A stretch of 30,571 nt of DNA from IMG/VR virus record IMGVR_UViG_3300036770_002962, positions 1 to 30,571 of that record. One strand, given 5' to 3'. This DNA comes from a virus. Each line of letters starts with the position of its first letter. Within the stretch, counting starts at the first letter, position 1. The position numbers and the translations under genes were made by a program. A model generated the notes under the pieces. That model worked only from the letters and a program-made list of their open reading frames with translations. It did no database searches and was not told the DNA's origin. This document shows positions 26,861 to 29,957 of this stretch, in pieces.

Positions 26861-27291
26861 TCGATCGTGCTCCCCTGTACCGTGATTTGAACCCGCCCCT
26901 TCGCGATCTTGCCCGACCAGTAGGCGGAAACTCCTACGCAATTGCGATCATCGTCCGTGATCTGGCCTGCGAGCAGGTCCAGAATGGGCTTGATCCTGTT
27001 ATCAATATCGCTCGTCGCTGTGGGCCGCCCGGCCAGGATCTGCACCCGGTAAGGCCCGGAAATCCGGCCCGGCCTCTGGGCCATCATCTCCACGAGCGAG
27101 CGGGCGCGCCAGCGCATGTAGGCCTGGGATTTTACCCGCCCGCCCCGGACGTTGTTGAGGAAAAGATTGTTCACGCTCGGGCAAAGATCCAGCTCCAAAA
27201 CCACCGGCGCGCTGGCCTCAGCCTCGGGAACGTAATCCGGGATTGCGTAGTCCCCGAGCCCCGCGCGGCCCAATTTCGGTTTATCCGTCAA
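26857..27291 (-). CDS. rusA: RusA-family Holliday junction resolvase
   Basis: The 144-residue product carries the RusA core: PSVNNLFLNN near 38-47, then Asp95-Ile-Asp97-Asn-Arg-Ile-Lys101 with Asp105 and a DDDRN block at 113-117. By comparison with E. coli RusA the Asp pair, the Lys and the later Asp are the metal and catalytic residues and all are kept. Family knowledge: a dimeric endonuclease that resolves branched DNA before packaging. It is coupled by ATGA on both sides, upstream to the replication gene and downstream to the HTH-zinc gene. Confidence 0.9.
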   Translation of the reverse strand: MTDKPKLGRAGLGDYAIPDYVPEAEASAPVVLELDLCPSVNNLFLNNVRGGRVKSQAYMRWRARSLVEMMAQRPGRISGPYRVQILAGRPTATSDIDNRIKPILDLLAGQITDDDRNCVGVSAYWSGKIAKGRVQITVQGSTIE

Positions 27292-27908
27292 GACAGCTCC
27301 TCCAGTTTGAGCGCCAATGCGCGCCGGGGCTTGGTTCTTTCTTCAAGGCGCGCCAACAATTCCGTCCAAGTCGGGAACCAATGCCCGCGCCAGCCGGTGA
27401 CCGTGTCGCGAACAATATCGCCCGGAAAGGTTAAGCAACCGCGAATATAGATTTGGCTCATGAGATCAAAATCGGATTGGTTCCGCTGCTGGTAATTCAT
27501 GGCGAGGCTTAGCGCCGTGATCCATTTCGCCACCCATTCCTTGCCCGCTGGGAGGAGGGCTTGTGCGACCATTTTCTTAGCCCCTTGCAGGTCTTGCGGC
27601 CCCTCCAAACGGGACAATTTCGCCCCGATGAAAACGTCCTTCCAGGTCGAGGCGCCCGTTTTGGGGTCCACGGGGAACGTCATCCGGGTCTTCCAGGAGA
27701 CCTCCAGCCCGCATGAACGCAGCCGCGAGACTAGGTCTTTCGTGTTGGCCTCCGGATCCGCTGCGACCATTGCGCGAGGCATTTCGGTTTCGGATGATCT
27801 GACCAGATCCGTTCCGGATCCAGTTCCGCCACGTTGCACGCCAGTCGGCTTTGACGCCTCGGCTTCCGCCTTGAGCGATCCAGTGATCGCGGAACTTATC
27901 GGCTTCAT
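27288..27908 (-). CDS. Replication-region protein overlapping the DnaT-like gene
   Basis: The ATG at 27908 has GAGGAG seven bases upstream and gives 206 residues, 332 bp of which overlap another coding frame; later ATGs at 27782 and 27770 lack a ribosome site. The first 50 residues are low-complexity. The last 60 residues (YIRGCLTFPGDIVRDTVTGW, then HWFPTWTELLARLEERTKPRR) show a pattern I associate with phage replication-associated proteins of Rhizobiales and relatives (LxxYPxDvv...W...WFPtwaEL..le...R). The biochemical role is unknown; a helicase loader or replisome partner is a guess. It is coupled to rusA by ATGA. Confidence 0.75.
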   Translation of the reverse strand: MKPISSAITGSLKAEAEASKPTGVQRGGTGSGTDLVRSSETEMPRAMVAADPEANTKDLVSRLRSCGLEVSWKTRMTFPVDPKTGASTWKDVFIGAKLSRLEGPQDLQGAKKMVAQALLPAGKEWVAKWITALSLAMNYQQRNQSDFDLMSQIYIRGCLTFPGDIVRDTVTGWRGHWFPTWTELLARLEERTKPRRALALKLEELS

Positions 27909-28410
27909 GGTTGATCTCCTCTGCGGTCAGATATTCCCCGTTTGGGGTACGGTATTGGTAAGCCTCTGACGCCCAGTCCTCGGGGAGGGTCCAGTTTTCG
28001 GGTAAACGGGAGCCCCGTTCGCTCGATTTGCGGCGCGTTTTCGAATTTTCGCCAAAACTATTTTGGGGAGAGGGGGGGATTATAGGGGGGGAGAAGGGGA
28101 TAGAGTTAGGGGGTGTGGGGGGAAGAGAAAGGGGAAGAGGGGGGGAACAAGGGGGGGGGAGGGTTGTCCCGTGACCGTCACGTGACTGTCCCGTGACCGT
28201 CACGTGACCGTCACGTGACGTGTCGTCTTGCGGTGTTTCCTTGGGCTCCGCCTGCCGCTTTTCCCTGGACTTGCGCTTGCGTTCCTTCGCCGCTTCACGG
28301 ATCTCCGCGAGGCGCGTGCTTTGAGCCTCCACTGCCTCGATGGCGATTGCGATCACTTCCGGGGTAGCCCCGGCCTCAGCCAGACGGCGCACAAGATCGG
28401 CAATCGTCAT
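27577..28410 (-). CDS. Replication protein with DnaT/YdaU-like C-terminal domain
   Basis: The 277-residue product starts at ATG 28410, overlapping the HTH stop (ATGA). A helical N-terminus (1-60, ending in a basic stretch) is followed by a Pro-rich linker (about 85-125), then the domain RGSRLPENWTLPEDW, then EINHEADKFRDHW, then KADWRATWRNWIRN (about 132-185). This C-terminal domain is common in phage replication initiator or helicase-loader proteins after various N-terminal modules. The last 90 residues are overlapped by the next gene. The linker DNA contains 11-bp iterons and a G-rich tract, which may be the origin. The likely role is initiation or helicase loading, by analogy. Confidence 0.8.
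   Translation of the reverse strand: MTIADLVRRLAEAGATPEVIAIAIEAVEAQSTRLAEIREAAKERKRKSREKRQAEPKETPQDDTSRDGHVTVTGQSRDGHGTTLPPPCSPPLPLSLPPTPPNSIPFSPPIIPPSPQNSFGENSKTRRKSSERGSRLPENWTLPEDWASEAYQYRTPNGEYLTAEEINHEADKFRDHWIAQGGSRGVKADWRATWRNWIRNGSGQIIRNRNASRNGRSGSGGQHERPSLAAAFMRAGGLLEDPDDVPRGPQNGRLDLEGRFHRGEIVPFGGAARPARG
28065..28163 (+). repeat. G-rich homopurine tract, G-quadruplex potential
   Basis: On the plus strand, about 100 bases hold at least eight runs of four or more G separated by short A/T/GA spacers, nearly without pyrimidines. On the minus strand this codes the Pro-rich linker of the replication protein. The left flank (28032-28064) is AT-richer. It stands directly beside the 11-bp iterons. 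Confidence 0.75.
28171..28215. repeat. Four tandem 11-bp dyad iterons inside the replication gene
   Basis: GTGACCGTCAC occurs at 28171-28181, 28193-28203 and 28204-28214, with a variant GTGACTGTCCC at 28182-28192 and the start of a fifth unit after 28214. Each unit is a dyad (GTGAC-C-GTCAC), and each junction makes the palindrome GTCACGTGAC. The period of 11 is not a multiple of three, so the coding sequence alone does not explain it. Confidence 0.8.
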
Positions 28411-28625
28411 CTCCTCGCCCTCCCCTTCGCCGCCGTCCTGAATATGTCCGGGCGTACGATTTCCTTGGGGATGCCAAGTCGCCGCTCAATCTCCACGGCC
28501 CGTCCGAGCGGGATCACTCCCCTACGCTTCCAGGCGCTCACGGTCGCAACTGGGATTTCCAGCGCCCGCGCTAGCTGCGTCGGGCCGCCAAACAGGCGAG
28601 TAAAAAGTTCTTCTGAAATCACCAT
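28407..28625 (-). CDS. Cro/CI-type helix-turn-helix regulator (YdaS-like)
   Basis: The 72-residue product has the sequence GGPTQLARALEIPVATVSAW followed by KRRGVIPLGRAVEIERRLG, a clear helix-turn-helix with the recognition helix TVSAWKRRG at about 28-36, as in YdaS or Cro-like phage regulators. AGAGG lies six bases before the ATG. It is divergent from the ERF gene across a region with a perfect palindrome, where it most likely binds. It is coupled by ATGA to the replication gene. It may be a Cro/antitoxin-like switch protein, though no partner repressor is in the window. Confidence 0.85.
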   Translation of the reverse strand: MVISEELFTRLFGGPTQLARALEIPVATVSAWKRRGVIPLGRAVEIERRLGIPKEIVRPDIFRTAAKGRARR

Positions 28626-28761
28626 CCTGCACCTCTTTCCGCGCCCTTAACTCGCTTTCGTGCAAAAGGCAACAAAATAATTTACCATAAGCGCTTGCAT
28701 GGTCTGTTGCATTATGCAACAAGAATTGCAACACGAAATTGCAACACGAAAGGGAAGCAAT
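28626..28761. promoter_or_regulatory. Divergent control region: palindrome and TGCAACA repeats
   Basis: The 136-bp gap between the divergent HTH and ERF genes is more AT-rich than the genes. TGTTGCAT-T-ATGCAACA is a perfect 17-bp palindrome at 28705-28721. Its right half ATGCAACA is repeated as TTGCAACA at 28726 and 28739, inside two tandem copies of a 15-bp block AATTGCAACACGAAA at 28724-28738 and 28737-28751. AGGGAA at 28751-28756 is the ERF ribosome site. Promoter boxes cannot be placed with confidence. Confidence 0.7.
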
Positions 28762-29334
28762 ATGAAACACGAAACACTGTCCGCCGCACTGGCCGCCGCT
28801 CAGGCTGTTATGCCTCCGGTCGTCAAGGACCGGGTCGCCAAAATCGGCCCCGGTCGCGAATACCGCTATGCGGACCTTGCGACGATCTTGGCCACCGTCC
28901 GCCCTGTCCTGGGCGCGCACGGCTTGGCCCTTACCCAGCGCACGCAGATCAGGGGCGATGCTATCGTCCTGCTTACAGAGCTGCGCCACGCCAGCGGCGA
29001 GGTCCTCGACTCAGAGTATCCCGTCGCCGCGATCGGCATTAAACATCAGGACATGGGCGGCGCCCTTACCTACGCCCGCCGATATGCGCTCTGCGGCCTG
29101 ATTGGCATTGCCGCCGACGAGGACGATGACGGGGCGACGGCCCCTGCCCCTGTGCCGGTTCGCGAGCCTGCGATCTCTGCCGATCAGGCGCTTGAGATCA
29201 ATGACATGCTTAATGAACTGGGCGCAAACCGCGCGGCGTTTCTTAAGTGGGCGCAGGCTGACAGCGTCGAGCAGATCCCGGCCCGTAAATATGAGGCTGT
29301 TATCAATAAACTCTCAGCCAAGCGGGGGGCGTGA
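28762..29334 (+). CDS. erf: ERF-family single-strand annealing protein
   Basis: The ATG at 28762, after AGGGAAGCA, is preferred to an earlier in-frame ATG at 28699 that would lie inside the operator. The 190 residues show the ERF core: REYRYADLATILATVRPVL, HGLALTQRT, LTELRHASGEVLDSEYPV, QDMGGALTYARRYALCGLIG and DEDDDG. Family knowledge: Erf-type proteins form rings on single-stranded DNA and anneal complementary strands, often paired with a 5'-3' exonuclease, which is found downstream. A short C-terminal helical tail follows. The stop overlaps the next start (TGATG). Confidence 0.93.
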   Translation: MKHETLSAALAAAQAVMPPVVKDRVAKIGPGREYRYADLATILATVRPVLGAHGLALTQRTQIRGDAIVLLTELRHASGEVLDSEYPVAAIGIKHQDMGGALTYARRYALCGLIGIAADEDDDGATAPAPVPVREPAISADQALEINDMLNELGANRAAFLKWAQADSVEQIPARKYEAVINKLSAKRGA

Positions 29335-29957
29335 TGACTGTGGAAATCAAACACCGTTTCACGGGCGCGGTTCTGCACACCGTCCAGGCCGACACGCTAC
29401 GCGGGGCGGACCTGAACGGAACGGACCTAGGCGGGGCGGACCTAAGCGGGGCAAACCTGCGCGGGGCGCACCTGAGCGGGGCGGATTTGCGCGAGGCAAA
29501 ACTGAGCGAGGCAAACCTGCGCGGGGCGTACCTGCGCGGGGCGGATCTGCGCGGAGCGGATTTGATCGGGGCGGACCTCCGCGGGGTAAATTTGCGCGGG
29601 GCGAACTTGTACGGAGCGAACCTGCGCGACGCGGACCTGAGCGGGGCGGACCTGTACGAAGCGAACCTGTGCGGGGCGAACTTGTACGGAGCGGATTTGG
29701 GCGGGGCGAACCTGCGCGAAGCGGTTATCAATGCTAACAAGCTTGATCGGATACTCGCCCGCGCCACGCGGGTCAGCGATAATCACGAGTTCTTCCTCTT
29801 CGCGCTCCAAGACGGCCCGCCGAAGATAAAAGCCGGTTGCCGCTGGATGACGATTGACGATTACCGCGCCCATGTCGCCACTAATTATCCCAGAGCGTGC
29901 AAGGCGCGGGAAACGCTGAACATTCTTAATTATTTCGAGGCTTGCATACATGACTGA
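29334..29957 (+). CDS. Pentapeptide-repeat protein with C-terminal soluble domain
   Basis: The ATG at 29334 overlaps the ERF stop; a GTG at 29331 is another possible start. The first 20 residues are ordinary. About 22 pentapeptides of type [DN]-L-x-x-A follow (residues 22-133), which should fold as a right-handed square beta-helix. The last 70 residues form a separate domain (HEFFLFALQDGPPKIKAGCR, then RAHVATNYPRACKARETLNI) seen behind pentapeptide repeats in other phages. Some of these proteins mimic DNA or inhibit gyrase; whether this one does is unknown. It sits between recombination genes, so a DNA-related role is possible. The DNA shows a 15-bp periodicity. Confidence 0.9.
   Translation: MTVEIKHRFTGAVLHTVQADTLRGADLNGTDLGGADLSGANLRGAHLSGADLREAKLSEANLRGAYLRGADLRGADLIGADLRGVNLRGANLYGANLRDADLSGADLYEANLCGANLYGADLGGANLREAVINANKLDRILARATRVSDNHEFFLFALQDGPPKIKAGCRWMTIDDYRAHVATNYPRACKARETLNILNYFEACIHD

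Follow-up and report, generated by a model that had tools for sequence, protein, structure and literature searches.

A cluster of short dyad repeats beside a G-rich tract lies within a replication gene of the window, by which we mean the whole viral contig of 30,571 bases that was analysed, and raises the question of whether this DNA, besides encoding protein, is the origin at which the phage replicates. A preliminary description had proposed such an origin, bound by the product of the surrounding gene.

The gene (coordinates 27577 to 28410, minus strand) is annotated as encoding a replication initiator of 277 aa, P0001, whose C-terminal domain gave profile matches to phrog_3992 (primosomal protein; E 2.1e-16) and phrog_1408 (replication initiation protein; E 1.3e-14), the family names being annotations. 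Residues ~134–214 (27768 to 28011, minus strand) form a confident domain in the AlphaFold2 model, and DnaT chains 2ru8 and 4ou6 were among the top matches in a fold search with P0001, though below significance. The placing of the DNA element inside the gene of a replication protein with a DnaT-like domain is borne out by the two phrog matches and this structured domain. A Pfam search with P0001 returned nothing above the cut-off, both the DnaT model and PF09681 (Phage_rep_org_N) being unmatched, and a sequence search of solved structures gave no match. A protein-based genome scan found two distant loci only, and a scan of viral contigs with the single N-terminal sequence found no relatives. 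A 206-aa ORF (27288 to 27908, minus strand), with no family match and a true start that may sit further inside, shares 332 nt with the initiator gene in a different frame.

The N-terminal module (residues 1–54; 28249 to 28410, minus strand), common to P0001 and the relatives L111, L175, L188 and L206, was modelled by AlphaFold2 (16 sequences; pLDDT 87–94 over residues 1–50) as a short helix at 3–12 followed by one continuous helix at 17–54. The latter ends in a basic segment, REAAKERKRKSREKRQ (28252 to 28299, minus strand), in which R44 and K45 are invariant in A3 and which is proposed to read the iterons, its place just before them being kept in most initiators found by DNA scans. The long helix with a basic end in the model, together with E-box-like sites, recalls bZIP/bHLH proteins. 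The bZIP signature includes two small residues; a bZIP/bHLH identity was rejected, as there was no Pfam match and R/K stand at these two positions.

Residues 55–133 form a linker that is disordered in the model, and the DNA encoding it comprises the iterons and the G-rich tract. In coding order, the N-terminal module (28410 to 28249) is followed by the iterons (28219 to 28166), a C-rich tract (28165 to 28065), an AT dyad (28066 to 28052) and the DnaT-like domain, so that iterons, tract and dyad all sit in the linker between the two structured parts. Since the minus strand carries the gene, iterons and G-tract are entirely coding, and the coding strand of the tract is C-rich.

The array (28166 to 28219) consists of GTGACNGTCAC dyads spaced 11 bp apart, and GTCACGTGAC forms the joints between them. 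Copies of GTGACCGTCAC occupy 28171–28181, 28182–28192 (with two changes, GTGACTGTCCC), 28193–28203 and 28204–28214, and half-copies flank both ends. Tandem Repeats Finder assigned two periods to 28166–28219, one of 11 (score 87, 4.9 copies) and one of 22 (score 96), and near-matches to the iteron with at most two mismatches numbered 19 in the window against 6.3 ± 2.9 in shuffles (0 of 100 reached 19). The sequence, the repeat search and the shuffles thus confirm the four tandem copies first described, one with two changes, at a period of 11 that is out of codon register. Eight of the 44 GTGAC/GTCAC half-sites on the contig fall inside one 60-bp stretch. The altered copy (28182 to 28192), third in coding order, reads GGGAC on the coding strand; a perfect copy would place TGA in frame, and the change from GTGAC to GGGAC removes it while the 11-bp register is kept.

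Beyond the array is a homopurine G-run tract (28065 to 28165), also retained in relatives. Nine runs of at least four G occur in 120 bp here, compared with at most six elsewhere on the contig, and purines make up 90% of the best 100-bp stretch, compared with at most 75% of any other 100 bp, in agreement with the earlier report of at least eight G-runs in about 100 bp. The tract contains a core twin-run element, GGGGGTGTGGGGGGAA (28109 to 28124, plus strand; TTCCCCCCACACCCCC on the coding strand). The AT-richer flank noted previously is present as a 15-bp dyad, CCAAAACTATTTTGG (28052 to 28066), a candidate opening site and the only AT-rich sequence beside the iterons, the main flank being G-rich. 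The contig has a further G-rich stretch, made of GGGGGGGGAAGT repeats, near its left end (36 to 89).

These features could have arisen as a by-product of a low-complexity linker rich in Ser/Arg/Asp/His and Pro, with no role as DNA, since the linker is predicted to be disordered and Pro-rich linkers are common. However, in 5000 synonymous recodings that kept the protein fixed and used the codon usage of the phage itself, none reached the observed number of half-sites (8; mean 2.2, maximum 7), perfect dyads (3; mean 0.1, maximum 2) or C-runs (14; mean 4.8, maximum 12). The iterons, the G-tract and the AT dyad have been selected as DNA, and the by-product explanation, to which evidence from relatives given below is also opposed, is highly improbable.

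The short N-terminus and basic segment recur in L111, L159, L192, L172, L175, L188, L196, L206 and Pan3_57, a gene of Pseudanabaena phage Pan3, together with the iterons and, behind these, a pyrimidine-rich coding tract. In the Pan3 genome the densest C-run stretch is the initiator linker. The preliminary description would have been undermined by relatives that retain a Pro-rich linker and lose the repeats; instead, ten window-like genes have both linker and repeats, with the pyrimidine-rich tract behind the iterons. In L077 and L169 iterons are present and the tract is absent. A core of the form TTCCCCCC(C)A(C/G)ACCCCC(CC) occurs in six genes (the window, Pan3, L111, L172, L175 and L206), 23–41 nt past the last half-site and in frame 0, 1 or 2. 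The C-termini of window-like genes vary, being DnaT-like in L192 and L206, of another replication family in L111 and O-like in Pan3, and those of L172 and L196 had no family assignment.

Comparison with the close relative L003 using blastn revealed 81.3% identity up to 28002 and 81.9% from 28746, and no similarity over the intervening segment (28003 to 28745), which includes the Cro-like gene, the N-terminus, the iterons and the G-tract. L003 has a different N-terminus and no GTGAC array, and carries its own 11-bp AGCAATGCTAT repeats in the same linker, indicating that iterons and tract are tied to the N-terminus rather than to the DnaT-like domain. At the level of sequence comparison, the same elements are thus shown to recur at the corresponding position in initiators of other phages and to be exchanged along with the N-terminus. 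Distinct repeats were also observed in the linkers of TP901-1 rep (L054), 80alpha gp20 (L219; CCGTTAACGG), Pam5 (L036; GGGGTCAGAATGTGACCCCC) and a Collimonas relative (L052), as though each N-terminus had, as a rule, an iteron type of its own; a GTGAC array is absent from TP901-1 rep.

When 2.9 million viral contigs were scanned by DNA alone, most occurrences of the iteron word lay within genes for replication initiators. The phages concerned are of Staphylococcus, actinobacterial, marine and proteobacterial type, and the word usually comes directly after a motif resembling R-x-R-K-x-R-Q-R. The 22-mer GTGACNGTCACGTGACNGTCAC was present in 14 viral stretches, 12 of them in initiator-type genes, one immediately before the start of an initiator (L043) and one ambiguous (L051), and a shorter 17-mer in at least 119. 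For GTGACNGTCACGGGACA there were 52 viral stretches, with ~10 in unrelated genes, a number that chance could yield for a 16-base word. Among isolate phages, a pure array matched Staphylococcus genes whose annotations name replication initiation, a replisome organizer or a DnaD-like helicase loader, as well as phages of Pseudomonas, Gordonia, Rhodococcus and Mycobacterium. The array of the window itself had no blastn match in isolate phages, and the 22-mer was not found in 385 class-mates of the genome of an alphaproteobacterial relative.

The array adjoins a Cro/YdaS-like gene (28407 to 28625), and dyad repeats in such a position might be an operator for that regulator or for another repressor. 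However, the array accompanies initiators of many phages whatever their neighbours, and it lies inside the gene, outside the divergent promoter region, which has repeats of its own (28715 to 28751); we give an operator hardly any credence. The latter repeats, 13 bp in length (TTGCAACACGAAAT), are located between the Cro-like gene and an ERF gene and are probably the operators of the divergent promoter. Further along, a pentapeptide-repeat-like ORF (29331 to 29957) contains a 15-bp repeat, CGCGGGGCGGACCTG, about 21 times between 29400 and 29718.

Among the matches listed, 73 non-redundant ORFs carried the iteron word (near-duplicates removed, at least 30 residues upstream required, ORFs under DNA matches picked by length), and 70% had at least seven K/R in the 14 residues upstream, compared with 9% of random control segments. 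The association was weaker in sets chosen independently of the iterons, which occurred in 4 of 14 basic and 1 of 37 non-basic genes (Fisher p 0.017). Several basic initiators, including L015, L006 and L032, have no iterons, and in a Pseudomonas group the first GTGAC cluster precedes the basic segment. One initiator gene of Pseudomonas phage P7869 (L055; 1766 to 2665) holds two GTCAC clusters, an early one, GTCACGTGACTGTCAC, and a second of 10-bp GTCACGCAAT repeats right behind the basic segment, followed by CCCCCCTTACCCCCCTGAGGGGG. Refining the earlier reading, the likely iteron reader is the basic end of the long N-terminal helix.

Across 59 initiator genes the dyads were found in two frames, 47 and 29 times, encoding x-R-D-x-H (SRDGH) or V-T-V-T, and the third frame would hold TGA. 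For copies whose 11-bp step would bring them into the stop frame, the replacement seen most often was GGGAC (15 of 29, a frequency biased by GGGAC being part of one search word, though its frame is not biased), and the degenerate copy of the window is one such case. In the comparison of related genes suggested at the outset, iterons persisted as DNA in two frames and in unrelated initiators while the protein diverges. The occurrence of the same DNA words in differing frames among relatives is likewise at odds with the by-product explanation.

The twin-run element was also scanned for without the iterons. TTCCCCCCACACCCCCC was present in 99 viral stretches, and a composition-matched control in which the central ACA was replaced by TGT in only three, which a by-product of the linker would not account for. 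At least 19 of 40 non-redundant ORFs under the element matched replication families (initiation, primosomal or helicase-loader; 12 at 1e-5 and 7 at 1e-8), and these genes have unrelated N-termini and other iterons. The leading families among 60 ORFs under the element were nearly all replication families, and further matches fall in genes with no family assignment. The element was read in three C frames (PPTPP, SPHTPL and FPPHPP) and also reversed, as in Mycobacterium phage Babsiella gp64; the reversed core encodes KGGVGGN instead of PPTPP, again contrary to a by-product of a Pro-rich linker. Across the element, 25 of the 99 stretches had no ORF of 110 aa and some were clearly intergenic, hence it is not exclusive to initiators. 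In the related contigs L249, L262, L241, L242 and L264 it was observed in an intergenic segment, AAAGGTTCCCCCCACACCCCCCTCCAAA, and is kept while the adjoining bases diverge. The 17-mer twin run was not found in 249 genomes of the phylum of the Collimonas relative, an uninformative absence as few would be expected there at the viral-contig rate.

The coding strand has one G in the 100 nt beyond the last half-site, and the transcript of such a C-rich, G-poor tract could be a Rho loading (rut) site controlling transcription, leaving the iterons alone as the origin. However, other initiators have the element the other way round, with the G-runs in the coding strand, from which no rut site would result, and it accompanies unrelated iterons, making this role unlikely. 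The comparisons instead support the view that the G-tract holds a separate conserved element, found also in initiator genes with other iterons, which refines its earlier description as acting in melting or strand choice; as its orientation differs from gene to gene, strand choice cannot be explained by one model in every case.

Taken with the protein families, the recurrence in other initiators, the recodings, the L003 exchange and the conservation of the tract, the case for the origin originally proposed is strengthened, and the repeats and G-rich tract very probably constitute a phage replication origin inside the gene of its own initiator. GC skew, put forward as a check, adds weak support. 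The cumulative minimum of the contig (29,080) is 0.9 kb from the array, but it coincides with a switch in gene direction near 28.65 kb. Pan3 has its detrended minimum at 32,061, which is 1.7 kb from the initiator gene and also at such a switch, hence these minima prove little.

An origin inside an initiator gene is of a kind already known from lambda O, and the tandem iterons of the window, within the gene and between its two domains, have the arrangement of a lambda-type ori. The lambda origin has four larger iterons of 18 bp. It lies in the middle of gene O, with an AT-rich tract beside its iterons (PMC7466680). The window similarly has iterons and a putative opening region within the linker-coding part of its initiator gene, but differs in its 11-bp dyads, homopurine G-run tract and short AT dyad, and no sequence relation was found between the DNA-binding parts of lambda O and P0001. 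Intragenic origins have been proposed or shown for 80alpha and SPP1, with SPP1 oriL inside gene 38 (PMC5499656), and the 80alpha record has a rep_origin annotated within gp20. 80alpha gp20 and, by its description, SPP1 G38P thus share with the window an origin within the initiator gene, though the CCGTTAACGG-like iterons of 80alpha are unlike those of the window.

Staphylococcal replisome organizers of the DW2 gp16 type (PF09681) resemble the window in having GTGAC/GTCAC iterons right behind a basic segment, NRLRKQKQR, whose R, N, R, R, K and R do not vary among 16 sequences. They differ in that their N-terminal domain is of winged-helix type, not a short helical module, and in a flank that is AT- and purine-rich where the window has a C-tract. 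In the model of a staphylococcal-type initiator, a winged-helix-like N-terminus is followed by a helix (106–131) that carries NRLRKQKQR and ends at the start of the iteron-coded disordered part. P0001 was not assigned to Phage_rep_org_N (PF09681), and only the basic segment and iterons are in common. A twin G-run is also present near a replication start in human mitochondrial CSB 2 (G5AG7 to G6AG9), where it forms a DNA-RNA hybrid quadruplex (PMC5027508); this is an analogy and not homology, the phage elements occurring in both orientations.

By analogy with the intragenic origins of lambda, 80alpha and SPP1, loading on the iterons would be followed by opening of the neighbouring tract. It is reasonably probable that the N-terminal helix would dimerise and its basic end read TGAC half-sites, several dimers loading along one face of the array. 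More tentatively, the protein-DNA complex might strain the adjoining tract and open the AT dyad; as the flank is G-rich, opening is placed there, with the G-run strand, by speculation, held apart as a quadruplex or triplex and the C-rich strand left free. On balance we then favour the DnaT-like domain passing host helicase or primosome proteins to the C-rich strand.

Opinion is evenly poised on the broader proposal that two portable DNA elements may be common to the origins of unrelated tailed phages. The first would be a GTGAC/GTCAC dyad array that moves together with a short basic helix of the initiator, among differing N- and C-terminal domains and in phages whose hosts span several phyla; the second a twin G-run, GGGGGGTGTGGGGGGAA, that accompanies many different iterons in both orientations and may be a general opening or priming element. 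A literature text search for GTCACGTGAC, GGGGTGTGGGG and CCCCACACCCC with phage returned no origin paper, an absence that carries little weight as subscription journals were mostly uncovered. No earlier description was found of the iteron/basic-helix pair or the twin G-run element, and their novelty is provisional.

To our knowledge, most tailed-phage origins are unmapped, and a recognisable iteron word together with a twin G-run would permit origins to be predicted from sequence over thousands of contigs. The window is a clean case of two codes in one stretch of DNA, in which repeats are kept at one helical turn and stops in the reading frame have been removed. Should the basic helix prove to read the iterons, origin recognition would rest on a very small and portable device.
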